Assembly (NCBI RefSeq): GCF_002162135.1
Contig: NZ_CP021382.1
Coordinates: forward strand, 3,842,001 to 3,906,000
Reading direction: 5' to 3'
Source of the DNA: Cellvibrio sp. PSBB006
Lineage (GTDB): Bacteria > Pseudomonadota > Gammaproteobacteria > Pseudomonadales > Cellvibrionaceae
DNA: 64,000 bases
This document shows positions 2,231 through 45,323 of this stretch, one piece after another. Positions within the stretch are counted from its first letter, which is position 1. Each line of letters begins with the position of its first letter. The position numbers and the translations under genes were made by a program. The notes below the pieces were generated by a model. It saw only the letters and a program-made list of their open reading frames with translations, did not search any database and was not told the DNA's origin.

Positions 2231-2261
2231 TCCACCCGCTAACAGATACAGAACGCATGTT

Positions 2262-23311: not shown

Positions 23312-24463
23312 CTATTCAAGGCAAAATTTCTGTATCAAGCCACGAATAATAGCGGTTGCCGGTTCAATTTGCCGTGTGTCAATAAATTCATCCGGCTGGT
23401 GTGCCTGATTGATCGAGCCAGGTCCGAGTACCACCGTTTGCATACCCAGCTGTTGCATAAACGGCGCTTCAGTTGCAAACGCCACGCTTTCGCTGCGATT
23501 ACCCGTGAGCGCTTCGCAGGTTTGGATTAGCGCAGAATGTTCATCTTCAGCAAAAGCATCCACGCCTTCAAACAGGGAAGACAAAATAATATCCGTGCCG
23601 GTTGCCTGGGCGATAGGACTCAATCGTTGCTGAATAATGCTGCGCATTTCATCATTATCCATGCCGGGCAATAACCGCAGATCAAAATGTAATTCGCATT
23701 CAGCACAAATGCGGTTTGCGCCGTCGCCACCGTGTATGCAGCCCAGATTCAGAGTCGGGACAGCTACAGCAAAACCGGGATTGCGATAACGTGATTGTAA
23801 TTCAGCGCGCAAAGCTATCAATTCATTCATAACCTGATTCATGCAATCAAGTGCACTCCTGCCCAGGGCCGGATTGGAAGAGTGGCCGCTGCGACCTTGT
23901 ACGCGAACTGCCTCCATCATGATGCCTTTATGCATGCGCACCGGAACCAATTCCGTCGGTTCGCCGATAACAGCATAGCGCCCTTTGGGTGTGCCACTTG
24001 CGGCCAGCGCGCGCGCGCCGCTCATACTGCTCTCTTCATCGGCAGTGGCAAGAATAATCACGGGGTGTTTCAGTGGCATTTTTAAGAATGGTTTTATTGC
24101 TTCAATGACAACAGGGAAAAATCCTTTCATGTCTGTGGCGCCCAAGCCAAAAAGCTTGCCATCTTTCTCGGTTAATTTAAATGGATCACTCTGCCAGCGA
24201 TGCGTGTCGTAGGGTACGGTATCGCTGTGCCCGGCCAAAACTAATCCACCGTCACCCTCTCCGAGGGTGGCAATTAAATTTGCTTTGCCCTGCTGTTTCA
24301 ACGGCATAATTCGGGTGCGCAATCCCATTTCATCCAGCCAGGTCGCCAGCAGTTCGATAACCGGCAAGTTTGGCATGTCCCATTCGGGCACAGCGCAACT
24401 CACCGATGGAATGGCGACCAGTTGTTGTAATTGCTGTTGGTATTGTTTGGCATTAAAAGTCAT
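23312..24463 (-). CDS. argE: Acetylornithine deacetylase
   Basis: Zinc-dependent M20-family hydrolase that releases acetate from N-acetylornithine in arginine synthesis. 383 residues, normal length. Metal ligands are recognisable in LAGHSDTVP, GLGATDMKGF, TADEESSMSGA and IGEPTE, with the dimerisation lid between. It is transcribed in front of argA with an 80-bp gap, so the two arginine genes may be co-transcribed. Divergent from the halogenase gene at 24640. Confidence 0.94.
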   Translation of the reverse strand: MTFNAKQYQQQLQQLVAIPSVSCAVPEWDMPNLPVIELLATWLDEMGLRTRIMPLKQQGKANLIATLGEGDGGLVLAGHSDTVPYDTHRWQSDPFKLTEKDGKLFGLGATDMKGFFPVVIEAIKPFLKMPLKHPVIILATADEESSMSGARALAASGTPKGRYAVIGEPTELVPVRMHKGIMMEAVRVQGRSGHSSNPALGRSALDCMNQVMNELIALRAELQSRYRNPGFAVAVPTLNLGCIHGGDGANRICAECELHFDLRLLPGMDNDEMRSIIQQRLSPIAQATGTDIILSSLFEGVDAFAEDEHSALIQTCEALTGNRSESVAFATEAPFMQQLGMQTVVLGPGSINQAHQPDEFIDTRQIEPATAIIRGLIQKFCLE

Positions 24464-24639
24464 AACTAATCAACATTGTATAGTAGAGGATGTCATGGTT
24501 TGCGCGAGTTCTTATCATACTCCAGATAGACAATCACATGGCTATCAATATCCGCTTTCGCCAGTAGGTTCGGTCGGTGGACGCAATTTGGCATTAACGA
24601 TATGCTTCGATGCAATGTCATGCATGTTGGAGAGCAGAC

Positions 24640-26142
24640 TTGAACGAACGTGTTAATAAGATTGTTATTGTGGGCGGTGGCACGGCGGGTTGGATGGCCG
24701 CTGCGAGTCTGGCACGTTTCTTTGACGGAAAACCTTCCCATATTGTTTTGATTGAGTCAGAGCAGATTGGTACCGTGGGCGTGGGCGAAGCAACTATACC
24801 AGGCATCCGTGCGTTTAATCTTTCATTGGGTATTGATGAAATTGATTTTATCAGGAAGACCAACGCCACCTTCAAATTGGGTATTGAATTTCGTAACTGG
24901 TATCAGAATAACACCACTTTTTTTCATCCATTTGCGGCTTATGGTTTGCCACTACATGGTGTGGAGTTTCATCATTACATTGCGCGCATGCGTGCCGCAG
25001 GCGAAACCGTTGATATAGCAGATTACAGCTTTCCTATTCAGTTGGCCCGGCGAGGACATTTTGCCCAGCCCCACGAAAAGCCACCCACCCCGCTGGCCGA
25101 TTATGGTTACGCGTATCACTTTGATGCAGCACTTTATGCTTCTTATTTGCGAGACTACGCCATGGCACGTGGTGTCGTGCGTATAGAGGGCAAGATTGCC
25201 TCAGTCAAGTTACATCCGGATGATGGATTTATTGAGTCGGTGATCATGGACAATAATGCAGAAATCGCAGGGCAACTTTTTATTGATTGCTCCGGGTTTC
25301 GCGGATTACTGATTGAAGAAGCGCTTCATACGGGCTATGACGATTGGCGTTGTTGGTTGCCCTGTGATCGTGCCGTCGCCGTGCAAAGTCAGTTGACCGG
25401 AGAGCCTACACCCTATACGCGCACCACCGCCCACGAAGCCGGTTGGCAATGGCGAATTCCGTTGCAACATCGCACAGGTAATGGTTATGTTTATGCCAGC
25501 CGCTTTATTAGCGATGAGCAAGCCAGGCAGACATTGCTGACACATCTTGACGGCGAACCGATAAAACAGCCGCGTCAGTTTGATTTTGTTACTGGGCGAC
25601 GAAAAAAAATCTGGAACAAAAATTGTTTTGCACTGGGGCTCGCTTCCGGTTTTCTTGAGCCATTGGAATCTACCAGTATTTCATTGATTCAAACCGGCAT
25701 TAGCAAGCTTTTGCAATTCTTCCCGGATGTCAGCTTCAACGCGCACGATATGGCAGAAGTTAATCGTCTGCATCATCACGAATTCGAGCGTATACGTGAT
25801 TTTCTTATTCTTCATTACAAAGCCACGACGCGTAGCGATACCGCATTTTGGCGCTTTTGCCAGGAAATGCCAGTGCCGGATTCGCTCGCCCATAAGATGC
25901 AGGTTTATGAAAGCCGCGGACATCTGGTGATGTATGACCCGGAAGCTTTCGAAAAAGAAAGCTGGGTGACCATGTACATGGGCTTTCACCGATATGCCGA
26001 GCGTTATGATGAGCGCGCGGATAACATCAATCTGGATGAATTAAAAAATCAATTGGCCAAGATGCGGCAGATGATTCAAATCGCCGCCGACCAGGCAATG
26101 CGCCACGGCGATTTTATTGCCCGCCATTGTGCAGCAGAATGA
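24640..26142 (+). CDS. Flavin-dependent tryptophan-halogenase family protein (paralog 2)
   Basis: 500-residue FAD enzyme of PF04820. The start is TTG at 24640, because GGAG lies 7 nt upstream and the dinucleotide motif VIVGGGTAGW then falls at residues 9-18 as in relatives. Catalytic signatures are complete: Lys79 in TFKLGIEF, WQWRIP, and Glu in EPLEST. It also carries HPFAAYG near residue 98. The gene faces argE and ends 1 bp before the stop of a homologous halogenase on the other strand. Halogenases of this type beside TBDRs have been shown to brominate indole-like compounds in Xanthomonas; the substrate here is not known. Confidence 0.91.
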   Translation: MNERVNKIVIVGGGTAGWMAAASLARFFDGKPSHIVLIESEQIGTVGVGEATIPGIRAFNLSLGIDEIDFIRKTNATFKLGIEFRNWYQNNTTFFHPFAAYGLPLHGVEFHHYIARMRAAGETVDIADYSFPIQLARRGHFAQPHEKPPTPLADYGYAYHFDAALYASYLRDYAMARGVVRIEGKIASVKLHPDDGFIESVIMDNNAEIAGQLFIDCSGFRGLLIEEALHTGYDDWRCWLPCDRAVAVQSQLTGEPTPYTRTTAHEAGWQWRIPLQHRTGNGYVYASRFISDEQARQTLLTHLDGEPIKQPRQFDFVTGRRKKIWNKNCFALGLASGFLEPLESTSISLIQTGISKLLQFFPDVSFNAHDMAEVNRLHHHEFERIRDFLILHYKATTRSDTAFWRFCQEMPVPDSLAHKMQVYESRGHLVMYDPEAFEKESWVTMYMGFHRYAERYDERADNINLDELKNQLAKMRQMIQIAADQAMRHGDFIARHCAAE

Positions 26143-26143
26143 T

Positions 26144-27655
26144 TTATGCGTTAACTGAGCAGTTGGCCGCAATGAACTCTTTATGTGTCGGCACGGAATT
26201 CACGGCGCGCTGAATCGATTTACGCATCTCCGCCAGACTTTGCTTAAGATAATTTTCGTCCAGTTGATCTACACGGCTGTTGTAAGTCTGTGGCAATATC
26301 CCAAATCCGTGGTAAATGGCGAGCCAACTGGGCGGGCCAAATATTTCTATTGGGTAACGAATCAATTCGCCTCGGGTAACAAATGCATCAATTTTGTTTT
26401 GCAATGGTTCCGGGACGGCGGTTGTGCGACATTGATCCCACAGTGGCTCGCCGTGTCGTTGATTGGCTTTATAATGCAGGATAATAAAATCTCTCACACG
26501 CTCATACTCCTGGGCAGTCAGATGATTAAATTCATCAACTGCAGCCTGGGTATAGTAAGGGTACGGAAAACTGTGGCGAATTTTTTCGATGGCGGTTTCT
26601 ACCAAGGCAATGCTGGTGGATTCCAGCGGTTCCAGAAAACCACTGGCTAAGCCAACCGCAATACAGTTTTTATTCCATGCCTGTTTGCGCCTGCCGGCAG
26701 TAAAACTGAAACGACGCGGCTCATGCAATAAATGACCGTCAATGTTTTTCTTCAGAATCGCAATGGCCTCATCCTCAGTCATATAACGACTGCAATAAAC
26801 ATGACCATTTCCCTGACGATGCTGCAGTGGAATTCGCCATTGCCATCCGGCTTCGTGGGCCTGACTTATGGTGTATGGTGGCGGATCACCTGCCAACTCA
26901 CTTTGCACGGCTACGGCGCTGTCGCATAACAGCCACTCGCTCCAGTCTTCATAACCGGTTTTAAATGTTTGTTCGATCAGCAGCGCGCGAAAACCGGAAC
27001 AGTCTATAAATAAATCGCCGTTAACTTCATCACCATTCTCCAGCATTAACGATGCTAAAGAGCCATCAATAGAATCCTGTCGCACCTCATGGATGCGTGC
27101 ATCAATACGCTTTACACCTTGTTGCTCAGCATATTCACGCATCAATTTGGCAAACAGTGATGCATCGAAATGTAATGCCCAGTCGAATACCGATAACTCA
27201 GACGGTGGGTTAGGTGAGGGTTCGATAAATTTATGGTGCTCCGCCAACTGTACGCCCAAGGAATATTCCGGCAATTCACCAGCGCCTTCGCCGTGTTCGC
27301 GCAACTTCATCCAGTAGTGATGAAAATCCACGCCGTTGGCACGTTGTCCGTAAAGACCAAAAGGATGGATAAACTGGCTCCCCGTGCTATGCCAGTCGCG
27401 AAACTGAATGCCGAGCTTGCAGGTGGCGCGCGTGGCTCGCATAACATCAAGATCCTTCATGCCCAGCTCAGCGTAAAAGCGCCGCAATGTCGGTATAGTC
27501 GCTTCGCCGACACCCACAGTGCCTATCTCTGATGACTCCACCAATGTGATGGCAACCGAGGTTTTACGAAAGTGTTTGCTCAGGCTGGCAGCCGTCATCC
27601 AACCAGCAGTGCCGCCACCAACAATAATGATTTTGCTTACAGGTTTTTTCTGCAC
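26144..27655 (-). CDS. Flavin-dependent tryptophan-halogenase family protein (paralog 3, downstream of TBDR)
   Basis: 503 residues from the GTG at 27655, preceded by AAAGG with a 7-nt spacer; a TTG 27 bp upstream lacks one. The flavin motif IIIVGGGTAGW is at residues 9-19, Lys80 in TCKLGIQF, WQWRIP and the EPLEST glutamate are all present. It follows the TBDR gene on the same strand after 148 bp that contain a strong hairpin terminator, so it is probably expressed by read-through or from a weak internal promoter. Its 3' end abuts paralog 2 tail to tail. The cofactor reductase is not in the window. Confidence 0.91.
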   Translation of the reverse strand: MQKKPVSKIIIVGGGTAGWMTAASLSKHFRKTSVAITLVESSEIGTVGVGEATIPTLRRFYAELGMKDLDVMRATRATCKLGIQFRDWHSTGSQFIHPFGLYGQRANGVDFHHYWMKLREHGEGAGELPEYSLGVQLAEHHKFIEPSPNPPSELSVFDWALHFDASLFAKLMREYAEQQGVKRIDARIHEVRQDSIDGSLASLMLENGDEVNGDLFIDCSGFRALLIEQTFKTGYEDWSEWLLCDSAVAVQSELAGDPPPYTISQAHEAGWQWRIPLQHRQGNGHVYCSRYMTEDEAIAILKKNIDGHLLHEPRRFSFTAGRRKQAWNKNCIAVGLASGFLEPLESTSIALVETAIEKIRHSFPYPYYTQAAVDEFNHLTAQEYERVRDFIILHYKANQRHGEPLWDQCRTTAVPEPLQNKIDAFVTRGELIRYPIEIFGPPSWLAIYHGFGILPQTYNSRVDQLDENYLKQSLAEMRKSIQRAVNSVPTHKEFIAANCSVNA

Positions 27656-27701
27656 AGGAAAACCTTTGAATAAAATGATCAATTCTTATTAATCGTTATC
27701 T

Positions 27702-27749
27702 CAAAAAACAAAAACCGCCGCAGTTGTCTTTCCACAAGCTACGACGGTT
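27702..27749 (-). terminator. Intercistronic terminator/attenuator between TBDR and halogenase
   Basis: On the minus strand AACCGTCGTAG and CTGCGGCGGTT pair over 11 bp (two G-U pairs), with a further TTGT/ACAA stem inside the loop, then TTTTTGTTTTTTG. This is a textbook intrinsic terminator placed between two genes that otherwise look like one operon. Confidence 0.85.
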
Positions 27750-27803
27750 CCTGTTGTATCAAAGAGTGCGGTTATTGAAAAGCACTCATTTATTACAAGG
27801 TTA

Positions 27804-30800
27804 CTAGAAGTTTACGCGAGCTCCCAATGCCCATCGTGCTTCATAGATGTTTTGGAAAGCTTTTTGGTCTTCAAACTCCAGATAGGTTTGTTGGAATTCC
27901 TCGGTAATGTTGGAACCATTTATATAAAGATCGACATTATCGGTTACGGTCCAGGTAACGTTCATATCCAGTTGGCCATAGTCATCTTGATAAAGGCTTT
28001 GCATGCCTGTTGCTGGGCTGCCGGCAGTGATCAGGCGTGGTGAGCGGAAGTTGTAAGCCAGTCTTGCAGACAGAAATTCGTTTTCGAACCAGCCGACTAC
28101 GTTGTATGTATCTTCTGAGTTGTTAACGAAAGGCAATTCCTCGCCTCCTAATCCCGCAGCATCCTGAGAACTGTCGGAGAAGGTGTAGTTAACATCAAAA
28201 CCGAAGTTTGAAATAAACCCATCGGCAAAATCACTAAAAGCTACTTTAGCGGCGAGTTCGACACCTTCTACCTTACCACCAGTGCCTTGAACTGGCGCCG
28301 TAAATGGCCAGGGGCCACGATTGATGCCGTCGGTATCCGGCTCATCCAGATAGATCGTGCCAGTTTGTACGAAACTTTCAATATCAATATGGAAAATCGC
28401 CGCGCTCAGAGCAGATGCATTGCCCACATACCATTCAGCCGACAGGTCGATATTATCAGCACGAGTTGGATCGAGATCGGGGTTGCCTGATAAGGAGCCG
28501 CTGCTGACGCGCATGCAGTTACAATCTTCATTGAAAACCCGACCTACCGATTTGGCACCACCCCAATCAAGAAGGTTTAATGGCTGCATGGTTTTTCCAT
28601 AACCGAAGCGGATTTTTACGTCATCCGTAACGTCGTAAGCAAGGTTTAGACTTGGCAACACATCTGTATAGCTGCGCTGGGTTACTTCATCTCCAGCATC
28701 ATAGTTTACACCTGAGTGAGGTACTGCATCGCCAGTAACGTTTTGAATAATAGTCAGGTCGGTTTCAACAATTTTTACGCCTAAGTTACCCGTCAGATTT
28801 CCGGCTTCAAAATTGATTTGTGTGAAATAACTAAATTCATCAAGTGCCACACCATAGCTTTGGCCTGGCTGGTTAAATTTAGTTTGTGCTCCAAAAACTT
28901 TTTCCTGGTATGCGAGGGTGTTGTCGAGCTCGCGGGGATCAACAACCCAAACACCCGGGATACCTTTAACGGGACCAAAATCATCAACCCATACCACGTT
29001 ATTCCACTCATCAATACGAGTTGGTGGTAACAATGTGTAGCCCAGAAAGTTTTCACGTTGACCCGTTACATTACCGTCTTCATCTTCAACGTCATATAGA
29101 ACCCGATCTCCATTTTCATCAACTTCGTATTCGCCTTGAATCAAATCTGGATCGCATTCTGCGGTGCCGGAAAATTGGTCTACTGCTTTCCATTGTGCTG
29201 AGCAGCCAGTTTCGGGGAAATTCGCAAAATATGAGAAAACGTTGTGATCTACAGTGCGCTCACTTTGGCGGAGGCCAAAATCAACAGCGGTAATGAATGG
29301 CGCTTCATCAAATTCATATTTCCACTTTGTACTGAAGGTATTCATTGTTCCATCATCATCAGTATTATTTTCTGATGACATGGCTCCGATGTGATATGAA
29401 TCTTTGCTGGCCATATATTCAGCTACAGTCATCATTCCCTGACCGCCATTAACGACCTGATCGAAGCCTCCGAAGACTGGATGTTTGCCGGATGCATCGT
29501 AAGTAATACGGAATTCATCGTCTTCGATACCACCAGGTGAGAAATCAGCAGCACAGCCGCCCAACTCGCCGATAACTTCTTGGTCGGGACCGCAATAAAT
29601 TGAATCTCCTGGCATTAATCCGCCTGGCCCTGTTACCAATGTGCCCTGATCAATACTCAGCATGTCGCCTTCAACATAGCCATGGCGCATGCTGGCAGTG
29701 GCATCGGCACGCGTGATACGCACTTGTCCGCTCAGAGGGCCATCATTGGCAAAATTCAGCTCAATGCTGCCGTTACTGGATTCCTCTTCATTGAAATTAA
29801 CCTGAGAGAACGACTGCAAACGATACGGTCTTGCACTGAAGGAATTAACGGTTCTCCAGTCATTGCCATCTTGATCAACAAAACTGTTGCTACCGAAACC
29901 TTCTGCGTAGGCGTAATCGGCGAATGTTTGCCAGCGATTGTTGTGAGAAAAACCAGCCCGGCGATTGTAACGCTCCTGTTTGCTGTAGAAATAATCAGCA
30001 ACCAATTCAACGCTGTCGGTTAGTTGAGCCTGAAAGGATAAATTAAGGCCGTCACGATTACGCTCTTCTTCCTTATGGAAGGCTGCAAAGCCTTGAGGCA
30101 CGACATGATAGATATCGGCATCAATAGCTGGCGTGCTCCAGGTGTGGTTATTGTTTGTCGCGCCGATGCCACCGTTTTCAGATGTATCGAAGTAACCGTT
30201 GTAGTCGGTAGCCAGGTTTTTTTCGGTGGTGACAGCACTAATCAGAAATCCAATTGTGTCATTTTGCCAGCCGACCAAGCCACTAATCGTAGGATCTACT
30301 TCCTCGCTGATGGAACCATAATCACCCTCGGCAGTGGCTGCGAAGGTCCAGCCCTCGTCAAGATCGAAAGGCCGGCGAGTCTTTAGGTCAATACTGCCGG
30401 CGATCCCTAAGGTTGTTAAAGAAGCTAAAGGGGATTTATAAACGTCTGCCCCAGAGAAGAGTTGCGATGGAAGATCCCCGAAATCGGCTCCAGAGCTGTC
30501 GATCGTCGTCGCACTCAAAAATGTTTCGCCATTCAATGAGGTCGCTACATTACTCAGACCACGGATCTGCACCGGGCCACCCTCACCGGCGGTCCGCTCT
30601 ACTTGAATGCCGGGAATTCGCTGCAGTGAATCAGCGATAGTCACGTCAGGTAACTTACCAATGTCTTCAGCGGAAATTGCATCGACGACGGAAGGTGCAT
30701 TTCGCTTGGTATTAACGGCATTTTGTTGCGACGCATACACGCCCGTTACAACTACTTCTTCCACCAGATTATCCTGCGCTTGCACGCAGACGGATGCCAA

Positions 30801-30863
30801 CAAACAGGAAGAAATACTGGACGCAAGTAATGTCTTCCGGAACGCCCTTTTTTGAGCTTCCAT
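27804..30863 (-). CDS. Large TonB-dependent outer-membrane receptor (halogenase-associated)
   Basis: 1019 residues from the ATG at 30863, which has GAGGAG 6 nt upstream; upstream in-frame codons have no signal sequence. A signal peptide ends at VQAQ. A TonB box (EEVVVTG) and plug domain follow (DVTIADSLQRIPGIQVER, VQIRGLSNVATSLNGE), then a 22-strand-type barrel ending in the aromatic-terminated RWALGARVNF. It imports an unknown ligand using TonB energy. Proteins of this long subtype commonly take up oligosaccharides. The putative LacI-type operators upstream and the halogenase downstream are the only clues to its substrate. Confidence 0.92.
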   Translation of the reverse strand: MEAQKRAFRKTLLASSISSCLLASVCVQAQDNLVEEVVVTGVYASQQNAVNTKRNAPSVVDAISAEDIGKLPDVTIADSLQRIPGIQVERTAGEGGPVQIRGLSNVATSLNGETFLSATTIDSSGADFGDLPSQLFSGADVYKSPLASLTTLGIAGSIDLKTRRPFDLDEGWTFAATAEGDYGSISEEVDPTISGLVGWQNDTIGFLISAVTTEKNLATDYNGYFDTSENGGIGATNNNHTWSTPAIDADIYHVVPQGFAAFHKEEERNRDGLNLSFQAQLTDSVELVADYFYSKQERYNRRAGFSHNNRWQTFADYAYAEGFGSNSFVDQDGNDWRTVNSFSARPYRLQSFSQVNFNEEESSNGSIELNFANDGPLSGQVRITRADATASMRHGYVEGDMLSIDQGTLVTGPGGLMPGDSIYCGPDQEVIGELGGCAADFSPGGIEDDEFRITYDASGKHPVFGGFDQVVNGGQGMMTVAEYMASKDSYHIGAMSSENNTDDDGTMNTFSTKWKYEFDEAPFITAVDFGLRQSERTVDHNVFSYFANFPETGCSAQWKAVDQFSGTAECDPDLIQGEYEVDENGDRVLYDVEDEDGNVTGQRENFLGYTLLPPTRIDEWNNVVWVDDFGPVKGIPGVWVVDPRELDNTLAYQEKVFGAQTKFNQPGQSYGVALDEFSYFTQINFEAGNLTGNLGVKIVETDLTIIQNVTGDAVPHSGVNYDAGDEVTQRSYTDVLPSLNLAYDVTDDVKIRFGYGKTMQPLNLLDWGGAKSVGRVFNEDCNCMRVSSGSLSGNPDLDPTRADNIDLSAEWYVGNASALSAAIFHIDIESFVQTGTIYLDEPDTDGINRGPWPFTAPVQGTGGKVEGVELAAKVAFSDFADGFISNFGFDVNYTFSDSSQDAAGLGGEELPFVNNSEDTYNVVGWFENEFLSARLAYNFRSPRLITAGSPATGMQSLYQDDYGQLDMNVTWTVTDNVDLYINGSNITEEFQQTYLEFEDQKAFQNIYEARWALGARVNF

Positions 30864-31043: not shown

Positions 31044-31072
31044 CTTTTAAACCTGGTGGACAACGTTGTCAA
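31044..31072 (-). promoter_or_regulatory. Predicted promoter of the TBDR gene
   Basis: On the minus strand TTGACA (perfect -35), a 17-bp spacer and TAAAAG (4 of 6 to the -10 consensus). The LacI-type operator at 31059-31070 overlaps the -35 hexamer and spacer, so a bound repressor would block polymerase. The resulting leader is about 175 nt. Confidence 0.55.
31059..31070. promoter_or_regulatory. LacI-family-type operator O1
   Basis: Perfect 12-bp palindrome GACAACGTTGTC with the central CG typical of LacI-family sites, overlapping the -35 region of the TBDR promoter. Confidence 0.65.
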
Positions 31073-31203
31073 TAATGCCGACATGCTTTGTCGGCCATAT
31101 CATCATTAGAAAGTTAATATTTTGTGCGGTATTTTTCTTAACTATTTGAAATATATAAATTTTTATTTGAAAAGTAAAAAGCGAAAAGGTTTGTAAATGC
31201 ATT

Positions 31204-31215
31204 GACAACGTTGTT
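31204..31215. promoter_or_regulatory. LacI-family-type operator O2
   Basis: GACAACGTTGTT repeats the ACAACGTTGT core of O1 exactly, 145 bp upstream centre to centre. Two such sites flanking an A/T-rich stretch suggest a repressor loop. No LacI-family gene is in the window. Confidence 0.6.
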
Positions 31216-31345
31216 TTTTTGCACCGATGTTGTGCTTTGTGCTGCATTTTGAGGCGGGGATTAACTGGGAAATGGTAGGCCTTGAAATGGGAGTTGCTGA
31301 CGATCAGTTGAGAGCGCTGACCGAAGGCCAGCGCTCACGAAGAGC

Positions 31346-37086: not shown

Positions 37087-38517
37087 ATGAAACTATCCTC
37101 CCTGCTGGCGGCGGCCGGCATATATTTATTCAGTCAATTTTCGTTAGGTGACACCATCATCAAGGGTGCCGACATCGGTTGGCTTTCGGAGATGGAAGAT
37201 AACGGCTATCAGTTTTATAACGATGCCGGCGTCCAACAGGATGTTTTGCAAACTCTCAAGCAACACGATATGAGCGCGGTGCGCTTGCGCGTGTGGGTGA
37301 ATCCGCCCGGTGGCTATTACAACGGCCTGGATGACGTAATTGCCAAAGCCAACCGTGCCAAAGCGGCGGGCATGAAGGTCATGATCGATTTTCACTACAG
37401 CGATAGCTGGGCCGACCCCGGTCAACAAACCAAACCGGCGGCCTGGGTCAATCTCGACTTTCAATCGCTGATGGACACGCTCTGGGCGTACACCCGCAAC
37501 AGTCTGATCACTCTGCGCGACGCCGGTATCACGCCGGATTGGGTGCAAGTGGGCAACGAAACCAACAACGGTATGCTGTGGCCGGACGGCCAGGCGTCAA
37601 GCAATATGCGCAACTATGCCTGGCTCACCGCGACCGGTTATAACGCGGTGAAAGATGTTTTCCCCAATACGCCCGTTATTGTTCACCTCGCGAACTGTCA
37701 CGACAACGCCAACTTCCGCTGGATCTTTGATGGCCTGAGTGCGAATGGTGGCAAGTTCGATATCATCGGCGCCTCTTCCTATCCCGTCCATGCCCCCAAT
37801 CACACCTGGCAATCCGCCAACACCGCCTGCCTGAATAATCTCAACGACATGGTGTCGCGCTACGGCGCGCCGGTGATGATTACGGAAGTTGGCGTGCCTT
37901 GGGACCACGCGGAAGCCAAAGCCATTGTGGCCGATGTGGTGAATAAGGTGCGGTCGGTAAATAACGGTATGGGCTTGGGCATTTTCTATTGGGAACCGCA
38001 AGCCTATGGTGGCTGGAAAGGCTACACGCTCGGCGCCTTTGATAACAATGGCAGACCGACAGCGGCACTCGATGCATTTCTTGATCCTGACGGCGGCGCC
38101 AGTGGTAGTGCACGTTTGCAATCCCGTCGCAGTAGCAAATGTATCGACGTCCCCGGCGCGAACCAGACGAGTGGCACGGGCTTAATTCAATACACTTGCC
38201 ATTCCAATCCGAATCAGCAGTGGACGATGGAAAATGTATCCGGTAATTACATGCGCTTGAAGGCTGGTCATAGTGGGCAGTGTATGGATATCGCGAGCCA
38301 AAGTACGGCTAACAGTGTGCGAATTGTGCAGGCGAGTTGCAGCAGCGGAAATCGTCAGCAGTGGTTGAAGGAGGATATGGGTGGTGGTTATTTTCGGTTG
38401 AAGAATCGCTATAGTGGTAAGTGTGTGGATGTGAATGGGGCGAGTATGGCGAATGAGGCGATTTTGATTCAGTACGCTTGTGGTTCTGGAATGAATCAGC
38501 AGTGGGTTGAGTATTGA
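37087..38517 (+). CDS. Secreted endo-beta-1,4-galactanase, GH53 with CBM13 module
   Basis: 476 residues, exported by an N-terminal signal peptide (cleavage near LGDT). Residues about 24-332 are a GH53 barrel starting KGADIGWLSEMEDNG, with acid/base Glu158 in VGNETNNG and nucleophile Glu267 in ITEVGVPW. Residues about 342-476 form a ricin-B/CBM13 beta-trefoil with three copies ending in QQW (QQWTME, QQWLKE, QQWVEY) and paired cysteines. The enzyme cuts beta-1,4-galactan or type I arabinogalactan outside the cell. It is convergent with the GH2-GH53 pair and forms the extracellular arm of the galactan locus. Confidence 0.93.
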   Translation: MKLSSLLAAAGIYLFSQFSLGDTIIKGADIGWLSEMEDNGYQFYNDAGVQQDVLQTLKQHDMSAVRLRVWVNPPGGYYNGLDDVIAKANRAKAAGMKVMIDFHYSDSWADPGQQTKPAAWVNLDFQSLMDTLWAYTRNSLITLRDAGITPDWVQVGNETNNGMLWPDGQASSNMRNYAWLTATGYNAVKDVFPNTPVIVHLANCHDNANFRWIFDGLSANGGKFDIIGASSYPVHAPNHTWQSANTACLNNLNDMVSRYGAPVMITEVGVPWDHAEAKAIVADVVNKVRSVNNGMGLGIFYWEPQAYGGWKGYTLGAFDNNGRPTAALDAFLDPDGGASGSARLQSRRSSKCIDVPGANQTSGTGLIQYTCHSNPNQQWTMENVSGNYMRLKAGHSGQCMDIASQSTANSVRIVQASCSSGNRQQWLKEDMGGGYFRLKNRYSGKCVDVNGASMANEAILIQYACGSGMNQQWVEY

Positions 38518-38546
38518 AAAATTATTGCTTCGTAGTCCGTTTGGCA

Positions 38547-38640
38547 TGAGTGGGAGTATTTCGAAAACGCATGAATACTTCCCTGTAGCTCCCTCAAGTC
38601 GTCCCTGACTTGAGGGTTTCAAAACAATGTCCCTCATGAA
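38547..38640 (+). repeat. Palindromic repeat element A (short form)
   Basis: Contains TTTCGAAAACGCATGA, then CTTCCCTGTAGCT, then a 10-bp hairpin (CCCTCAAGTC / GACTTGAGGG, 38591-38616) and TTTCAAAAC. The same modules occur in inverted orientation in element B at 42410-42569. It lies just after the GH53-CBM13 stop, in the gap with the convergent GH2 gene. Confidence 0.75.
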
Positions 38641-38666
38641 AAGCTCACACTGTAGTAAAAAATTTA

Positions 38667-41030
38667 TTAACGAATACGAAATTTAAATTCAGCGTTTCCA
38701 GCGACGGCACTAACACTGGCGTCTTCCAAATCATCTCCAATTTCAATCAACGCACTGGCAACACCTGCCTCTGTTTTTATTTTATCCGAACTAACCAACC
38801 TAATATCGCCTTGAGTACTGAAGGTCACTTCAACATCATTGTCATAAGTCGGGTTGCCTTTTTCGTCCAACAATTGTGCGTAAACAAAAACCAGATCCTT
38901 CACGCCAGCTTGCGGAGCTTTGCCGCGGGTGTCGAGATCCAAAGTAATTTGGGTGGTTTTTCCCGGCGTTACGACTTTGTGTTCTGCTACAAGCTTTCCA
39001 TTGATAAAGGCCTTTGCAGACAGCTCGCCCGCTTCAAATTTTTTCAGATCGAACGTAAAGGGTGGATGCTTTAAATATTTGGTGTTGGCGTTTTTGTCCG
39101 GTGTTTGTTTGCCGAGGCTTTTGCCGTTGAGCACTAGTTCGACTTCTTCTGCATTGCTGAAGACGCGTAGATCCAGCGGCGAGTCGGCTTGCCAGCGGCT
39201 GGCGATGTGCACCATCGGGCCGGATTCATAGTGGTCAGAAATGTCCTGCGGGTCGCGTTGGCTTTGGAAGAAGTAATAGCTGTATTTGGGGCGGCGATGA
39301 ATGCTCATGATGCCTGAAGCTTCCAGGTCATCGGCGTAGCCGCGGTTGTAGTCGAACATGACCCAATAACCGTCGGCAAAGGCGGGGGTAGTAAGGTTAT
39401 CGTTATGCGCTTCCTGAATATTGGTGGCTTGTTGCAGTAAGCGTTTTTCGCCATCGCCTAGTAATTGTCGGCTGGATCGATCAGCTTGCAATAAATCGCC
39501 CCAGGCGTCCTGATTCAAACCGGCATTCATGGCGTAGTATTCCCAATCGCCGTACTCGGAAACGACGTAAGGTTTGGTGGGTGTTTTGTAATGTTCCAGG
39601 CGGTGTTGGCGCGCTTGCAGATAAATGTCGTAGCCGTATTCCTGCCAGCCCGCCGAGTAGGTGGTGTTGCCGGGATATTCTTCGTGCACAATTTTTTGTA
39701 ATGAATCAATAAAGGATTCGCTCATCCAGGATTCATTCAGCGAACATTCCCACGCGAGCACGGAGGGATGGTTGCGATCGCGGCGGATCAGGTCGCGACA
39801 AGTTTGTTGTATTTGTGTCTGGAATGCCGGGTCTTCGGAAAAATATTGCCAGCCTAAAATAGCATCGATTAAAACCAGGCCCAATTCATCCGCAGCAGCC
39901 ATAAATGCGCGGGAATGTGGGTAGTGAGACAGGCGCACATAATCAAAGCCGGCAGATTTTATTTTAACGGCATCGCGATAGTCAGCTGCTGCGGATGTGG
40001 CGTAACCGACGTAGGGATATTCCTGATGGCGATTTATGCCGCGCAGAAACGTTTTTTCGCCGTTAATCAACAAACTGCCATCATCGGTAAAACGAAATTC
40101 GCGGATGCCGATACGGGTATGTTGCTCATCTACCATTTCCTGGCCATCGAACACTTGCGTCACCAAGGTGTAGAGATGTGGCTGTTTGGGCGACCACAAA
40201 TTTGGGTTGGTAAGGGTTAACTGCAGCCGTGATTCCTGATCATTATTGGCTGGAACAGTGAGATTTTTGCTCTCCGTCTGAGTAACAATTCTTTTCCCAT
40301 CGAGCAAAACCTGTTTTATTTGAAACGTTTTTCCAGCGCTACCGGCATTACGCACATGCGTTTGAATCGCTATGTGCGCCTCGGTTGGCGATACCTTCGG
40401 GTAGGTGACAAATATGCCGCCACTGGCCTGTTTGTCGGCGGCGATAGGATCGGTGATGTAGAGGTCATCTTTGGTCACGAGATACACATCGCGATACAAG
40501 CCGCCATAGGTGTTGAAGTCGAGCGTAGCCAAGGGTTTGGGGCCGGTGATGGGGTTGTCACGATTATCAAGGCGCACCAGTAATTCGTTTTGATCGCGCG
40601 TTAACTTGCCCGTGAGTTCTGCTGTAAAAGGTAAATAACCACCCACATGCATTGTCAGTTTTTCACCGTTAAGCCAAACCTCTGCCACATTCATGGCCGC
40701 TTCAAAACGTAACCACACCGGCCTTTGATCATCGATGGAATTACCGTCAATCATTTTTCGATACCAGGCATCACCCTGAAATTGATCGTTCACAATCAGC
40801 GGTTCGATCCTGGATGTATGCGGCAGCGTTACCTCCTGCCAGTCGGTACGCCCTTGCACTTGCGTCAGGCTGAGTGAATCATCGCTACGCAGAAACTGCC
40901 AGTCCTGGTTGTATCGTTGTTCACTCGCGGCGCTGCGTGTGTCTGGTGTGCTTTGCGAAGTCGGTGTGCAGGCAGCGAGAAGCCAGCTGCTGCCGATGAG
41001 TGCGGCAATACAGAGAGATTTTCCAAGCAT
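38667..41030 (-). CDS. Lipoprotein beta-galactosidase, GH2
   Basis: 787 residues with a lipoprotein signal (WLLAAC, lipid-anchored at Cys21). Order: sugar-binding jelly roll about 40-190, Ig-like domain about 205-312, catalytic barrel from 315 with acid/base Glu433 in SLNESW and nucleophile Glu492 in VVSEYGDW, then Ig-like/DUF4982-type domains to the end. It would release galactose from galacto-oligosaccharides in the periplasm or at the outer membrane. The GH53 partner gene ends 3 bp upstream, so the two are co-translated as an operon. Activity on galactose is inferred from the neighbours; GH2 also includes other glycosidases. Confidence 0.88.
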   Translation of the reverse strand: MLGKSLCIAALIGSSWLLAACTPTSQSTPDTRSAASEQRYNQDWQFLRSDDSLSLTQVQGRTDWQEVTLPHTSRIEPLIVNDQFQGDAWYRKMIDGNSIDDQRPVWLRFEAAMNVAEVWLNGEKLTMHVGGYLPFTAELTGKLTRDQNELLVRLDNRDNPITGPKPLATLDFNTYGGLYRDVYLVTKDDLYITDPIAADKQASGGIFVTYPKVSPTEAHIAIQTHVRNAGSAGKTFQIKQVLLDGKRIVTQTESKNLTVPANNDQESRLQLTLTNPNLWSPKQPHLYTLVTQVFDGQEMVDEQHTRIGIREFRFTDDGSLLINGEKTFLRGINRHQEYPYVGYATSAAADYRDAVKIKSAGFDYVRLSHYPHSRAFMAAADELGLVLIDAILGWQYFSEDPAFQTQIQQTCRDLIRRDRNHPSVLAWECSLNESWMSESFIDSLQKIVHEEYPGNTTYSAGWQEYGYDIYLQARQHRLEHYKTPTKPYVVSEYGDWEYYAMNAGLNQDAWGDLLQADRSSRQLLGDGEKRLLQQATNIQEAHNDNLTTPAFADGYWVMFDYNRGYADDLEASGIMSIHRRPKYSYYFFQSQRDPQDISDHYESGPMVHIASRWQADSPLDLRVFSNAEEVELVLNGKSLGKQTPDKNANTKYLKHPPFTFDLKKFEAGELSAKAFINGKLVAEHKVVTPGKTTQITLDLDTRGKAPQAGVKDLVFVYAQLLDEKGNPTYDNDVEVTFSTQGDIRLVSSDKIKTEAGVASALIEIGDDLEDASVSAVAGNAEFKFRIR

Positions 41031-41033
41031 AAA

Positions 41034-42182
41034 TCAGTTGTCCTTTTTATCGGATGTAATGGTCTCGGTTTTTTGATAATCGGCGGAGAAAAATAAAAAT
41101 GCCGGTAAGGTGGAGTTTTTCTTGCCGGCATGAAAAAAACTCGCGTTCTCCCAGTGAGAGCCGGTACCCCAACGGGTTTTACATTGTGTGCTAACCCAGG
41201 CGGGTTCCCAATAAATAACACCCAGCCCGCCGGCCGATTTAACCGTTTGAGCAAGGCCCAGCAAATAAAGCAGTTGACCCTCGGGCGTGGGTTTGAATTC
41301 AGGTAACACAGCTTTCTCGCCGAGTACATTACCCGCTTTGTCAAAATTTTTCAGCGTCCAGGGATAAGCGGTTTCGACAATTAAAATGTCTTTATCAAAA
41401 GTTTTCTTCAAAGACTGAATAGCATCGGGCAATTGCTGGATAGTGTATTCCGACCACTGGGGATAATAGGATAAACCGATGATGTCGTAGTCGGTCACGC
41501 CATGTTGCTGCGCTTGCGGGAACCAGCGCAACGCATTTTCCGGTTGCGCGATATGCAAGACGATGAGAATTTTTTTACCCTGCACCGCTGAAAAGTCCCG
41601 CACGGCTTTTATGCCTTGGTTCAACAAATATGCATTGCGCGGCCAATTGATATTCTCGTGATCGGTTTTTCCTTCAGGCTGCAAAATCTCCGCATTGGTT
41701 TCGTTACCGACTTGCACCATCTCCGGCAACAGATTTTTTTCTGCCAAAGATTGCAGTGTGGCAAAGGTATAGTCATACAGTGCTTTGCCAAGCATTTTGG
41801 TATCCTGAATATTGCTCCAGGCCTTGGGAATCTCCTGCCGCTCGGGATCGGCCCAATTGTCGGAGTAATGAAAATCCAGCAGCACCGGCAGCCCTTGTTG
41901 CTTCGCGCGGCGGATAGTTTTGGTGGCGTCAGCTAGTGTTGAATACCGGGTCCAATCCGGGTTGTGCCATAAGCGCACGCGAATCAGGTTTGCACCTTTT
42001 CGTGCAAAGAGTTCAAACGGATCGTGCGGTTTGCCTTTATCACGATACACCGCACCGCAATCTTCCATTTCATTGACATAGGATAGATCGGCGCCGAGGT
42101 AAAAGGTTTCTGCATATGATTTGAATGCAAGAAATGCGAAACAAAAGACAAAGCTTAAAAAGGAATATTTTATTGGTTTCAT
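41034..42182 (-). CDS. Second GH53 endo-beta-1,4-galactanase, no binding module
   Basis: 382 residues from the ATG at 42182, where a signal peptide begins (LSFVFCFAFLAFKSYA); the longer upstream frame runs into a repeat element. A single GH53 barrel starts FYLGADLSYVNEMEDCG, with acid/base Glu151 in VQVGNETN and nucleophile Glu260 in LIVETAYPW. Lacking a binding module, it is more likely periplasmic and may trim oligosaccharides brought in by the adjacent TBDR before the GH2 enzyme acts. The ribosome-binding site is weak. Confidence 0.9.
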   Translation of the reverse strand: MKPIKYSFLSFVFCFAFLAFKSYAETFYLGADLSYVNEMEDCGAVYRDKGKPHDPFELFARKGANLIRVRLWHNPDWTRYSTLADATKTIRRAKQQGLPVLLDFHYSDNWADPERQEIPKAWSNIQDTKMLGKALYDYTFATLQSLAEKNLLPEMVQVGNETNAEILQPEGKTDHENINWPRNAYLLNQGIKAVRDFSAVQGKKILIVLHIAQPENALRWFPQAQQHGVTDYDIIGLSYYPQWSEYTIQQLPDAIQSLKKTFDKDILIVETAYPWTLKNFDKAGNVLGEKAVLPEFKPTPEGQLLYLLGLAQTVKSAGGLGVIYWEPAWVSTQCKTRWGTGSHWENASFFHAGKKNSTLPAFLFFSADYQKTETITSDKKDN

Positions 42183-42208
42183 AGAAGTTAGTCTGGTTGA
42201 GCAGTGCG

Positions 42209-42312
42209 GCGGGTGCCGCAATGGCTTCTGAGACACGCCGCAAGTACGTCCCTGTAGGCTCGGCACCGGCATCCTTGCCGGTGACGGTCTCAGAAGCCAT
42301 TACGACACCCGC
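42209..42312. repeat. MITE-like inverted-repeat element C
   Basis: Two 26-bp arms (42209-42234 and 42287-42312) differ at only two positions and share the perfect 14-bp core ATGGCTTCTGAGAC. The 52-bp interior holds an 8-bp hairpin, CACCGGCA-TCCT-TGCCGGTG. It is non-coding and lies between the GH53-2 gene and the TBDR gene, probably in the GH53-2 leader. Confidence 0.82.
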
Positions 42313-42409
42313 AGATATACCGTGCCAAACCCTGTTATGAAATCGTTGATTTCAAATTAGTTGCATAGAACACTGACAAATTCGATGCTTACACAATGCG
42401 AGTTTGGCG

Positions 42410-42569
42410 TTAGGGGGTGGGTTTCGAAACCCTCAATTCAGGGATGAATTGAGGGAGCTACAGGGAAGATGCATTCGCCACATCCTTGTGGCTCACCCTA
42501 CGGGCAGCTTCGCTGTGCAAATTGGCTTTCCTGCCAATTTGTCATGCGTTTTCGAAACCCACCCCCTAA
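42410..42569 (-). repeat. Palindromic repeat element B (long form)
   Basis: A 160-bp element bounded by a perfect 20-bp inverted repeat (TTAGGGGGTGGGTTTCGAAA at 42410-42429 and its complement at 42550-42569). Inside are an 11-bp hairpin at 42430-42455, a 5-bp one with a TCCT loop at 42478-42491 and a 9-bp one at 42518-42541. The outer modules match element A in the opposite orientation; the middle about 80 bp is absent from A. Confidence 0.85.
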
Positions 42570-42608
42570 TGACAAACGGATTGCAAAGTACAAAGCTCAG
42601 ATAAAGTA

Positions 42609-45323
42609 TTACAACTTCCAACTCACCCCAACCATATAACGACGCCCAAACTCCTCATACTTATTCACATGATTCGGATTATTCGACTCCAAACCATACA
42701 CACGATAAGGCTCGTTCGTCAGGTTCTGTACCTGGAAGTAAAACTTGTAATGATCATCCATTTCATAAGACAAACTCAGATCAACATAGCCTTCGCTATC
42801 ATTAATCCCCTCCTCACCCTGCACCGCATTAATATCGCGCTGAAACTCGCTGCGATAACTGTAAGACGTGCGCGCTTCAAAACCATCCTTGTAATACCAC
42901 AAGGTCAGGTTGCCCACATGCTCAGACAAACCAGTCAGCGCAGATTTGGTGGAATACAAAGGCACGAACTGCTCAACGTTGGATTCCGTAAACGCGTAGT
43001 TAGCATAAACACCCAAACCATTAAACGGCTCCGGCAAAAAGCTGAACGCTTGTTGATATAACACCTCATAACCACGAATGTAACCGCCTTCGCCGTTGAT
43101 CGGGCGTGACACATTGTAGGTAGTGCCGTTGTAAACAATTTGCTCCGCATCCGCCGCGCGTGCGATGAAGGTATCCAGGTCCTTGTAATAAACCGTTGCC
43201 GCTACGGAGGACTCATCGTTGAAATACCATTCGTAACCCAGATCCACCTGGGTCGCGCGGAAAGGATCGAGTTTTGGATTGCCCGATGAAGACTCACCCG
43301 GGTTTGCGCCGAACAAGTCATCATTCAAATTTAAACTCGGGCTCATTAAATCCACTGGCGCGCGCGCGATGGTTTTTGCTACGCCGAAACGGACTTGCTG
43401 CTCATCGGTCACCGCCAGCGTCATATTGAGGCTTGGCAGTACTTCATCGTAATCGTGAACAATGGCAACCGCTTCGACTTCACCGGCCATTTCTTCCCAT
43501 ACACCGGGTGATGTTTCCACCCACACATTCGGGCCTTGCTGGTAACCGCTGGAGGTGGTTTCGGTCTGTGCAGCGCGCACGCCGACATTCCCGGTCAACG
43601 GCAATGCAAAGATTTCGGTAGCAAAATCCAACTGCACATATTGTGCGGAGATGTCTTCACTCACATCCCAACTGGATAGCAGGTCATCGGCATCACCCAC
43701 ATCCGGATTGGCCAGGCCGCCGAAGTAATAATCGATTACAGCGTTGCGGTCAAAAGTGAGGTAGTCCGGCAGGTCGTTCCAGTAGCTGTCGCTCTTCGCG
43801 TCGAGGATAAATTCCTCAGGAATGGGCGTGCCGCTGTTGTCGGTGACGTATTGCAACCAATTTTGCGCATTCAGGAATTTTTCCCGCTGCGAAACGGAAG
43901 CACCGAAACGCACAGCAGTGAGCAGACCCGCGTCGAGTTCACGGGTGACATCCAATTGGAACGCGGTGATTTCATCACCGCCATCAGCAGCCGGGCGCAC
44001 TTCAATTTCGCTCACGCTGTTTTGCGCCGGATCGGTCAGGTCGGCTGTGTCCAGGCTCAGCCACATACGCTTGTCTCCGGTTGCGCCGAAGGTGGCGTAG
44101 CCGGGTGCGGCGTGCGTAGTGCGGATACTCGCCCAGCGGCGATCCCGTTCGGTTTTGGAGTAGGAGAGGTCACCTTCAAACGTCCACGCGTCCTGCCGCC
44201 ACTCAACATTTAGGCCGTGGCTGATCAGGGTATCTTCCTGGGCGAACTCTTCGTTGAGGTTACGCAATGAGCTGAGCGGAACAGTACCCGATAGCAGATC
44301 CAGCGCGCCCTCACCCAGTTCCGGATTGGTATAGGCGGTGGGGGTGGTATCGATCAACAGCCATTGATCGGTGTAAGTATTGGCGATCTGAAAATCAAAA
44401 CCGCGTTGGGTTTCGTCGATGTCGAATGTGGACCAGAAGCCGTCGTAGGCAATCTCCAGGTTGTCGTTGGGCTGCCATTGGATCGCGCCCATCACGCCGT
44501 GCCGACGATCTTCGCCACCGCGTATCAGCGCGGAGCCGCCCCAGGGCGCATTCACATTGGTTCCAAGGGCATCATTCCACTGGGTGTTGTGCCAGGTATC
44601 GCCGTAGTTCCACAATTCCGAACGCTGGGTGGCAATCGGTTGCGAGCGACCTGCGTAGCCCAGAGCAACGCCGAGGGTGTCATCCAGGAATTGATCGATG
44701 TAGGAGACACTGAAACGATGGCCCCAGCCATCATTGGCGGCGTCATCAATATCGCCGCCCAGGTCGTAAAAGGAGCCGCGCACATCCACCGACATCTGCC
44801 GTGAATCAAAATCCAGGGGTTTGATGGTTTCCAGGTTTACCGTGCCGGACAAACCGCCCTCCGGCAAATGGGCCTGGGGTGTTTTATACACCTGCGCGGC
44901 GTTGATCAGCTCCGAGGGGAACTGGTCGTAGCGGATATTGCGGTCTTCCTCAACGGTGGCGACTTCGCGCCCATTGAGCGTGGTCAGCCCGAGCAGACCA
45001 CCCATACCGCGAATGGAGATCTGGCTGCCGTTGCCGCGGTCGCGGTCCTGAGCCAGGCCCGGCAGGCGGTTGAGTGAATCGGAGATGGACACATCCGGCA
45101 ACTGACCAATATCTTCGGCGGCAATCGCCTCGATCATGCTGGCGGAGTTGCGTTTCTGTTCCATGGCCGATTGCAGGCTGCGCAGGAATTTGCCGGTGAT
45201 GACAATCTCTTCGATTTTTTCATCATTGTTGGCGGTCTGCGCCCAACCAAAGCTGCTGGAGGTGCCCAGGGCCAACAATAAGGCGGCATGAGTCAAACGA
45301 TGTATGACAGTGCTGTGTTTCAT
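42609..45323 (-). CDS. TonB-dependent receptor for galactan oligosaccharides
   Basis: 904 residues. A signal peptide (LLLALGTSSSFGWAQ) is followed by the TonB-box region (KIEEIVITGK), a plug domain (DVSISDSLNRLPGLAQDRDRG, ISIRGMGG, LTTLNGREV, NAAQVYKTPQAHL) and the barrel, ending in the aromatic-terminated YMVGVSWKL. It should import oligosaccharides with energy from a TonB system such as that at 14642-19806. The galactan assignment rests only on the adjacent GH53 and GH2 genes. It starts divergently from glnE. Confidence 0.9.
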   Translation of the reverse strand: MKHSTVIHRLTHAALLLALGTSSSFGWAQTANNDEKIEEIVITGKFLRSLQSAMEQKRNSASMIEAIAAEDIGQLPDVSISDSLNRLPGLAQDRDRGNGSQISIRGMGGLLGLTTLNGREVATVEEDRNIRYDQFPSELINAAQVYKTPQAHLPEGGLSGTVNLETIKPLDFDSRQMSVDVRGSFYDLGGDIDDAANDGWGHRFSVSYIDQFLDDTLGVALGYAGRSQPIATQRSELWNYGDTWHNTQWNDALGTNVNAPWGGSALIRGGEDRRHGVMGAIQWQPNDNLEIAYDGFWSTFDIDETQRGFDFQIANTYTDQWLLIDTTPTAYTNPELGEGALDLLSGTVPLSSLRNLNEEFAQEDTLISHGLNVEWRQDAWTFEGDLSYSKTERDRRWASIRTTHAAPGYATFGATGDKRMWLSLDTADLTDPAQNSVSEIEVRPAADGGDEITAFQLDVTRELDAGLLTAVRFGASVSQREKFLNAQNWLQYVTDNSGTPIPEEFILDAKSDSYWNDLPDYLTFDRNAVIDYYFGGLANPDVGDADDLLSSWDVSEDISAQYVQLDFATEIFALPLTGNVGVRAAQTETTSSGYQQGPNVWVETSPGVWEEMAGEVEAVAIVHDYDEVLPSLNMTLAVTDEQQVRFGVAKTIARAPVDLMSPSLNLNDDLFGANPGESSSGNPKLDPFRATQVDLGYEWYFNDESSVAATVYYKDLDTFIARAADAEQIVYNGTTYNVSRPINGEGGYIRGYEVLYQQAFSFLPEPFNGLGVYANYAFTESNVEQFVPLYSTKSALTGLSEHVGNLTLWYYKDGFEARTSYSYRSEFQRDINAVQGEEGINDSEGYVDLSLSYEMDDHYKFYFQVQNLTNEPYRVYGLESNNPNHVNKYEEFGRRYMVGVSWKL

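Follow-up and report, generated by a model that had tools for sequence, protein, structure and literature searches.

A TonB-dependent receptor gene with two BrvH-type halogenase genes between argE and pit in Cellvibrio sp. PSBB006, and the receptor as a possible halogenase substrate

Introduction

Flavin-dependent halogenases (FDHs) use reduced FAD, oxygen and a halide to form a hypohalous species that is employed on an electron-rich ring. Nutrient receptors double as entry points for phages and bacteriocins. Both kinds of protein are encoded side by side in Cellvibrio sp. PSBB006, whose genome is a single contig of 5.26 Mb. The window, that is the whole stretch of 64,000 nucleotides analysed here (bases 3842001–3906000 of the genome), contains between argE and pit one gene for a TonB-dependent receptor (TBDR) and two FDH genes, called Hal1 and Hal2. 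The reading developed below, to which a probability of about 0.4 is given, is that this cassette consists of a glycan TBDR and two dedicated BrvH-type flavin enzymes that act on the receptor itself.

Among enzymes of solved structure, BrvH (6frl) and Xcc4156 (6y1w) are the nearest to Hal1 and Hal2, with the same Lys, Glu and WxWxIP motif. According to sections of the two papers describing them (PMC5945002, PMC7336383), these enzymes act on indole and not on free Trp, prefer bromide and have open sites, so that peptides were suggested as substrates by the authors; BrvH lacks the residues that bind free Trp through its amino and carboxy groups (sections of PMC5945002). Their native substrates are called unknown in part of PMC7336383, and the word ‘receptor’ has no occurrence in either main text (PMC5945002, PMC7336383).

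Two other flavoproteins act on peptidyl Trp. QhpG, a halogenase-like flavoprotein and peptidyl-tryptophan dihydroxylase, hydroxylates a peptidyl Trp in the cytoplasm, in a protein that is exported later, as described in portions of PMC7876137. The window FDHs match the profiles of QhpG, LodB and GoxB weakly, far below cut-off, and belong to another family by curated cut-off; QhpG, moreover, makes the quinone cofactor of a small periplasmic subunit instead of marking a receptor at the cell surface. MibH (5uao) is an FDH acting on peptidyl Trp, according to a passage of PMC7336383, and is matched at 166.9 bits by Hal1 and 184.5 bits by Hal2, but it serves lantibiotic tailoring and is far more distant from both than BrvH. 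It is because of the peptide suggestion for BrvH and Xcc4156, together with the QhpG precedent, that the TBDR precursor is proposed here as the substrate.

On the receptor side, the closest systems are TonB-dependent carbohydrate utilization loci and the NagR regulon, which in Xanthomonas takes in TBDRs and the GlcNAc kinase (parts of PMC5343134). Likenesses are a TIGR01782 receptor, glycan genes in sister loci and a palindrome common to a GlcNAc locus; in contrast, the window copy has no adjacent glycan enzyme, and the palindrome is at most a candidate NagR site. A passage of PMC11337851 speculates on FDHs and virus–host receptor redox. The FDH, the receptor and the neighbourhood are of known kinds, whereas a receptor as FDH substrate would be new; no paper naming a TBDR as the substrate of an FDH was found in text searches of an open-licence library.

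The receptor–halogenase cassette

The interval between argE and pit reads Hal1 (+), Hal2 (−), TBDR (−), with no further genes. Its elements and flanks are as follows.

24640–26142, plus strand: Hal1, PF04820 FDH, BrvH-like; 500 aa with the TTG start, 510 aa if translated from the ATG at 24610; PF04820 608.9 bits (cut-off 21)
26144–27655 (GTG start) or 26144–27682 (TTG start), minus strand: Hal2, PF04820 FDH, closest to BrvH; 503–512 aa; PF04820 599.3 bits (cut-off 21)
27804–30863, minus strand: TBDR, TIGR01782, 1019 aa from ATG; TIGR01782 532.7 bits (cut-off 310); plug and barrel by Pfam
29190–29192, minus strand: Trp558 codon, first candidate target residue, within the Cys554–Cys570 segment CSAQWKAVDQFSGTAEC; codon verified in the sequence
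30138–30140, minus strand: codon of Trp242, second candidate target residue; codon verified in the sequence
28857–29216, minus strand: TBDR loop 550–669, putatively extracellular; secondary structure of the model, side from strand parity
30093–30191, minus strand: TBDR loop 225–257, putatively extracellular; secondary structure of the model, side from strand parity
23312–24463, minus strand: argE, left flank of the insertion; NF003474 563.9 bits
31346–32620, minus strand: pit-type phosphate transporter, bordering the insertion on the right; PF01384 405.5 bits

Hal2 converges with Hal1 across a gap of 1 bp and directly follows the TBDR, with which it shares the strand. An in-frame TTG offers the TBDR a longer start, extending it to 30947. 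The AlphaFold2 model of the receptor has a pLDDT of 83.9 and its Foldseek matches are TBDRs; the closest protein, 97% identical, is that of Cellvibrio sp. ARAG 10.3. A preliminary description of this DNA had placed a 1019-residue TBDR and two halogenase paralogs with intact FAD, WxWxIP, Lys and Glu motifs exactly between argE and pit, and had taken them for an insertion in a conserved block. All three genes were found there, both FDHs keep the motifs, the two flanks are those listed, and the comparison with relatives (see below) confirms the insertion.

Pairing of halogenases and receptors across genomes

The genome of PSBB006 contains 26 full PF04820 genes (two partial PF04820 rows, both from a single 369-aa frame, were excluded) and 40 TIGR01782 TBDR entries, 37 of them above cut-off after merging of split rows. 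All FDHs but one (25/26) have a TIGR01782 TBDR at a distance of at most 5 kb, where 2.45 would be expected by chance (mean of 2000 circular shifts), and 18 of the 40 TBDRs have an FDH within 5 kb. Pairing recurs in six other genomes, where 58/66 FDHs are at most 5 kb from a TBDR and 37/102 TBDRs have an FDH; in this count two partial TBDR rows of G031 are excluded, and first-look candidates were partly scored (e.g. 47/94). Among 80 loci retrieved with 13 of the own FDHs, a TBDR is found within 1 kb in 55 and within 5 kb in 60. FDH-like genes also occur near TBDRs in GlcNAc loci of Xanthomonas, and Caulobacter laboratory strains likewise have PF04820 genes. The co-occurrence of TBDRs with PF04820 genes, which the preliminary description proposed to look for, extends beyond this genome, which answers the objection, anticipated there, that none might be seen elsewhere. 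Within PSBB006, distances between TBDRs correlate with distances between their nearest FDHs (Mantel r 0.35, p 0.003, n=17), and the FDH-linked TBDRs are longer (mean 1019 versus 939 aa, p 0.0006).

The sole unpaired FDH of the genome also lies in the window (2262–3758, plus strand, PF04820 605.6 bits), with the closest TIGR01782 TBDR 24 kb away. It stands directly downstream of a LysR-type regulator gene (1253–2230, plus strand) that is OxyR-like by eye.

Loop tryptophans and halogenase linkage

Linked and unlinked receptors were compared column by column, with 69 FDH-linked TBDRs (17 from PSBB006 and 52 from the 80 loci) set against 58 FDH-less ones (18 from PSBB006 and 40 from the six genomes). 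The 40 were taken from 58 FDH-less TBDRs of those genomes, 18 being left out; four weak or split TBDRs of PSBB006 and one TBDR lying 3.2 kb from an FDH were also omitted. Reading frames of the FDH-less stretches were picked by profile match. A version based on the longest open frame, with values of 0.68 versus 0.22 at the Trp558 column, was discarded because such frames are often antisense in GC-rich genomes.

Trp558 comes out at the top of 424 residue-column candidates enriched with FDH linkage, being present in 45/69 linked and 4/58 FDH-less receptors, and it ranks first in all five sets thinned to <45% identity. Among the 24 FDH-linked TBDRs without Trp558, 18 carry Trp242, including a clade in which Trp242 is invariant (16/16). 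One or the other Trp is found in 63/69 linked but 7/58 FDH-less receptors and, in the thinned sets, in 26–29 of 29–33 linked versus 3–5 of 35–38 FDH-less ones. Both residues are located in long loops of the TBDR model, which an alternation of strands starting at the plug would place outside the cell. Cys554 and Cys570 flank Trp558, the segment being conserved from alpha- to gammaproteobacteria, and Trp558 is kept in 118/120 database homologs, with Tyr in the other two.

The receptors were also sorted by type of FDH. FDHs were assigned to groups by profile score, group A being the WxWxIP-containing, BrvH-like one. Either Trp is present in 8/8 TBDRs of PSBB006 whose nearest FDH belongs to group A, in 4/9 with a group B neighbour and in 1/18 without FDH, as well as in 51/52 receptors from loci retrieved with group A FDHs. 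Since five of the six linked TBDRs without either Trp are from group B loci, group B may have another target. Eight paralogs of PSBB006 have WxWDIG or WxWDIT in place of WxWxIP (group B, e.g. 2462244 in L023 and 4264697 in L031), and several of these adjoin SapC; their reaction or their target may differ.

A relative lacking Hal2 and both tryptophans

Among 24 close orthologs of the window TBDR (23 aligned, plus that of G013), 23 combine a neighbouring Hal2-like FDH with a conserved Trp558. The exception is G015, where the insertion holds the TBDR and Hal1 but no Hal2; no Hal2-like FDH was found in that genome, the best match (50%) being its Hal1. The G015 receptor shows the changes Q557L, W558Y and W242N, and its segment reads CSALYKAVDQF. 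Hal2 and both tryptophans are therefore jointly absent.

Insertion between argE and pit and cassettes of relatives

A search with Pit over 28 genomes gave matches in 16, one of them PSBB006 itself, which leaves 15 for comparison. In 13 of these, argE adjoins pit without interruption, as the preliminary description had expected of a conserved block; G015 alone shares the insertion, with a TBDR there, and in G027 neither argE nor a TBDR is found beside pit within 1.5 kb of available sequence. Eight relatives carry the TBDR ortholog (52–72% by BLASTP) at other sites, followed by a Hal2-like FDH, and a convergent Hal1-like FDH (59–61%) comes next in all six whose contig extends far enough; the neighbours of TBDR and Hal2 vary among them, a GH9 gene being located upstream of the orthologous TBDR in G004 (Cellvibrio sp. 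pealriver), which has both a Hal2-like and a Hal1-like FDH. That relatives carry the same set elsewhere points to relocation of the cassette as one unit. No clear terminal repeats of a mobile element were found around the insertion, short repeats only, and its GC content is slightly below that of the flanks (about 0.46–0.51 versus 0.51–0.58). The layout TBDR, FDH, convergent FDH is also seen in another Cellvibrionaceae record (L059) and in a Robiginitomaculum record (L127).

The halogenases

Both FDHs keep the GGGTAGW and WQWRIP motifs, with K79 (Hal1) and K80 (Hal2) as the catalytic Lys and E343 and E345 as the Glu. The best solved structure for both is BrvH 6frl, with 528.5 bits for Hal1 and 631.9 bits for Hal2, and Xcc4156 (6y1w) ranks third; the best Trp halogenase scores lower (293.1 and 277.9 bits), which places both proteins nearer to the BrvH type than to the PrnA, RebH or PyrH types. 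They begin directly in the FAD fold, with no signal peptide evident by eye, and are predicted to be cytoplasmic.

Throughout the genome, 24 of the 26 PF04820 paralogs keep both Lys and Glu, while two have lost Glu and one of these also Lys. The two degenerate copies are found in L030 of PSBB006 (4029129, without catalytic Lys and Glu, and 4038480, without Glu). Such copies are seen repeatedly in TBDR operons, placed between intact FDHs (L030, L068, L069, L078, L080, L099 and others), and the retention of a dead paralog suggests a structural partner.

Ligand of the receptor and a promoter palindrome

Ten proteins scanned from the FDH–TBDR loci of PSBB006 include GH5, GH26, GH13, GH97 and GH9 enzymes. 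One such locus carries NagK and NagP together with a NagX-like gene, and a second combines a NagX-like gene with GH18, the NagX-like matches being below the model's cut-off. Beside the window TBDR, no glycan enzyme or sugar transporter was found between argE and pit. Two sites upstream of the receptor gene bear on its ligand.

31058–31071, no strand assigned: palindrome GGACAACGTTGTCA, candidate LacI-family operator, upstream of the TBDR; sequence match
31203–31216, no strand assigned: second palindrome copy, imperfect, TGACAACGTTGTTT; sequence match

The palindrome GACAACGTTGTC stands upstream of the window TBDR and of its ortholog in 8/8 relatives with upstream DNA available, and occurs in three loci of the wider clade (L059, L060, L062) and in three copies in the NagK–NagP locus. 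Exact copies number 22 in 2.2 Mb, against ~0.13 expected with equal base use, and 16 of them are at most 600 bp upstream of a TBDR. Across the window, the palindrome at three mismatches is not unusual (five matches versus a shuffled mean of 2.65, with 13/100 shuffles reaching five); its weight is drawn from the recurrence of exact copies across loci and not from the window-wide count. On this sequence basis, the ligand of the window TBDR would be an amino-sugar or a chito-oligosaccharide.

Other genes were observed in the same surroundings. A TPR-sulfotransferase gene (L022:16279–17796) is located upstream of a GlcNAc-type FDH–TBDR locus. DUF6445 (PF20043; L054:8306–9007 and homologs), four of whose six copies in PSBB006 are in FDH–TBDR loci, shows an HxD...H...R pattern and a predicted fold resembling 2OG-oxygenases (top Foldseek match HygX, E 4.1e-5). 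In the window, an FDH-less TIGR01782 TBDR (42612–45323) adjoins two GH53 genes and one GH2 gene, forming an ordinary galactan locus (37087–45323).

The receptor as substrate and alternative explanations

Four observations back the reading of the receptor as substrate: the genes are paired, the catalytic residues are intact, loop tryptophans go with FDHs, and G015 is without Hal2 as well as both tryptophans. In the proposed mechanism, the cytoplasmic FDHs would draw on reduced FAD and on oxygen, either alone or with bromide or chloride, and would oxidise a Trp side chain of the TBDR precursor, by halogenation or hydroxylation, most likely at Trp558 and/or Trp242. This modification would precede Sec export, and the altered indole would end in a loop at the cell surface. 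There it could adjust the stacking of sugars, fix the loop in place or conceal the receptor from phages and toxins. We infer each of these elements: that the TBDR is the substrate, which of its residues is modified, by what chemistry, when and to what benefit.

Several observations weigh against this reading. Linkage to FDHs tracks TBDR clades, with 10 label changes on the tree versus a shuffled mean of 42, and therefore any clade marker can appear enriched. The biggest difference between the two sets is a plug-domain Asn, present in 48/58 FDH-less and 11/69 FDH-linked receptors. Trp558 is only narrowly ahead of the next residue (0.58 versus 0.54), and the top two-column Gly pair reaches 0.73 versus 0.79 for Trp. 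At the Trp558 column, 47/58 FDH-less TBDRs are gapped, so that the signal partly reflects presence or absence of a loop whose alignment is uncertain. A first comparison restricted to orthologs gave no Trp or aromatic column tracking FDH presence; Trp558 and Trp242 emerged in the wider comparison, where both columns were selected and scored on the same data. In the window TBDR clade, 13 of 51 distinct loci have no FDH in the available flank and 13/13 of these keep Trp558; for seven, a Hal2-like FDH is encoded at another place in the genome, G115 has one 2.2 kb off, and G006 is possibly cut by a contig end. A Hal2-type FDH was found neither in G017 and G003 (best matches 48–50%) nor in G146 and G054 (no match at E<=1e-150). 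Of the 80 retrieved FDH loci, 18 are without a TBDR in the available stretch, some stretches being short. Finally, G015 represents one event, its receptor has 11 private changes in 366 near-invariant columns and it has kept Hal1; the loss of both tryptophans may be due to chance.

Four other explanations were considered. That the FDHs make a halogenated small molecule, such as an indole-type signal or antimicrobial, co-regulated with glycan uptake, with the receptor a mere neighbour and the loop Trp a clade marker, is unlikely. The clade-wise linkage and the 13 FDH-less receptors that keep Trp558 speak for it, as does the use of free indole by BrvH, slow as it is according to a section of PMC5945002. 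An enzyme of metabolite synthesis, however, need not be copied for each receptor, while here there are 26 FDHs and correlated pair distances; the argE–pit insertion comprises three genes, with no biosynthetic genes seen in it; and Hal2 was lost in G015 together with both tryptophans. The FDHs are quite improbable as plain oxidases or redox sensors driven by NAD(P)H or flavin, without a dedicated halogenated product: the two paralogs without catalytic Glu (one also without Lys), the recurring degenerate copies and the regulator beside the unpaired FDH (window 1253–3758) would agree with such a role, but Lys and Glu are both intact in 24/26 paralogs, as is WQWRIP in the two window enzymes, and this explanation is accordingly rated lowest.

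Relatives of Cellvibrio degrade plant walls, and imported sugars would be destined for the cytoplasm, where the FDHs are predicted to reside, so that a modification of the imported ligand, or of an aromatic group of plant origin linked to it (as in an aryl glycoside), could be envisaged. The preliminary description proposed uptake of a ligand followed or protected by its halogenation. This part is poorly supported: the scanned loci are glycan loci, with GH5, GH26, GH13, GH97, GH9, NagK, NagP, NagX-like and GH18, a GH9 gene precedes the G004 ortholog and the palindrome of the window TBDR is common to the GlcNAc locus, yet none of these sugars has an indole or phenol; moreover, linked and FDH-less receptors differ by a Trp in the receptor itself. 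As the amino-sugar or chito-oligosaccharide considered for the window TBDR has no ring that can be halogenated, ligand halogenation is given little probability. The same low standing applies to the idea that the FDHs modify another exported protein of the locus, such as a glycoside hydrolase or a TonB-type protein. It gains from FDH neighbours resembling protein hydroxylases (Cupin_8 in 5/5 cases, DUF6445 in 4/6), but in the window insertion the TBDR is the only other protein, and relatives keep TBDR and Hal2 while the neighbours differ.

Implications for tryptophan marks on receptors

The natural substrates of BrvH and of the Xanthomonas halogenases have been open since 2018–2020 (PMC5945002, PMC7336383), and a named receptor with two named residues makes the substrate question addressable by mass spectrometry. 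A broader version of the receptor-as-substrate proposal, possible but doubtful, is that, still in the cytoplasm, each BrvH-type FDH halogenates or hydroxylates a surface-loop Trp in the precursor of its own TBDR, that Proteobacteria with many such pairs display marked receptors, and that SapC, Cupin_8 and DUF6445 would be further tailoring enzymes of this maturation pathway. If the receptor is indeed the substrate, nutrient receptors would bear enzyme-made halogen or hydroxyl marks, and a much-copied enzyme family of such bacteria would gain a function.

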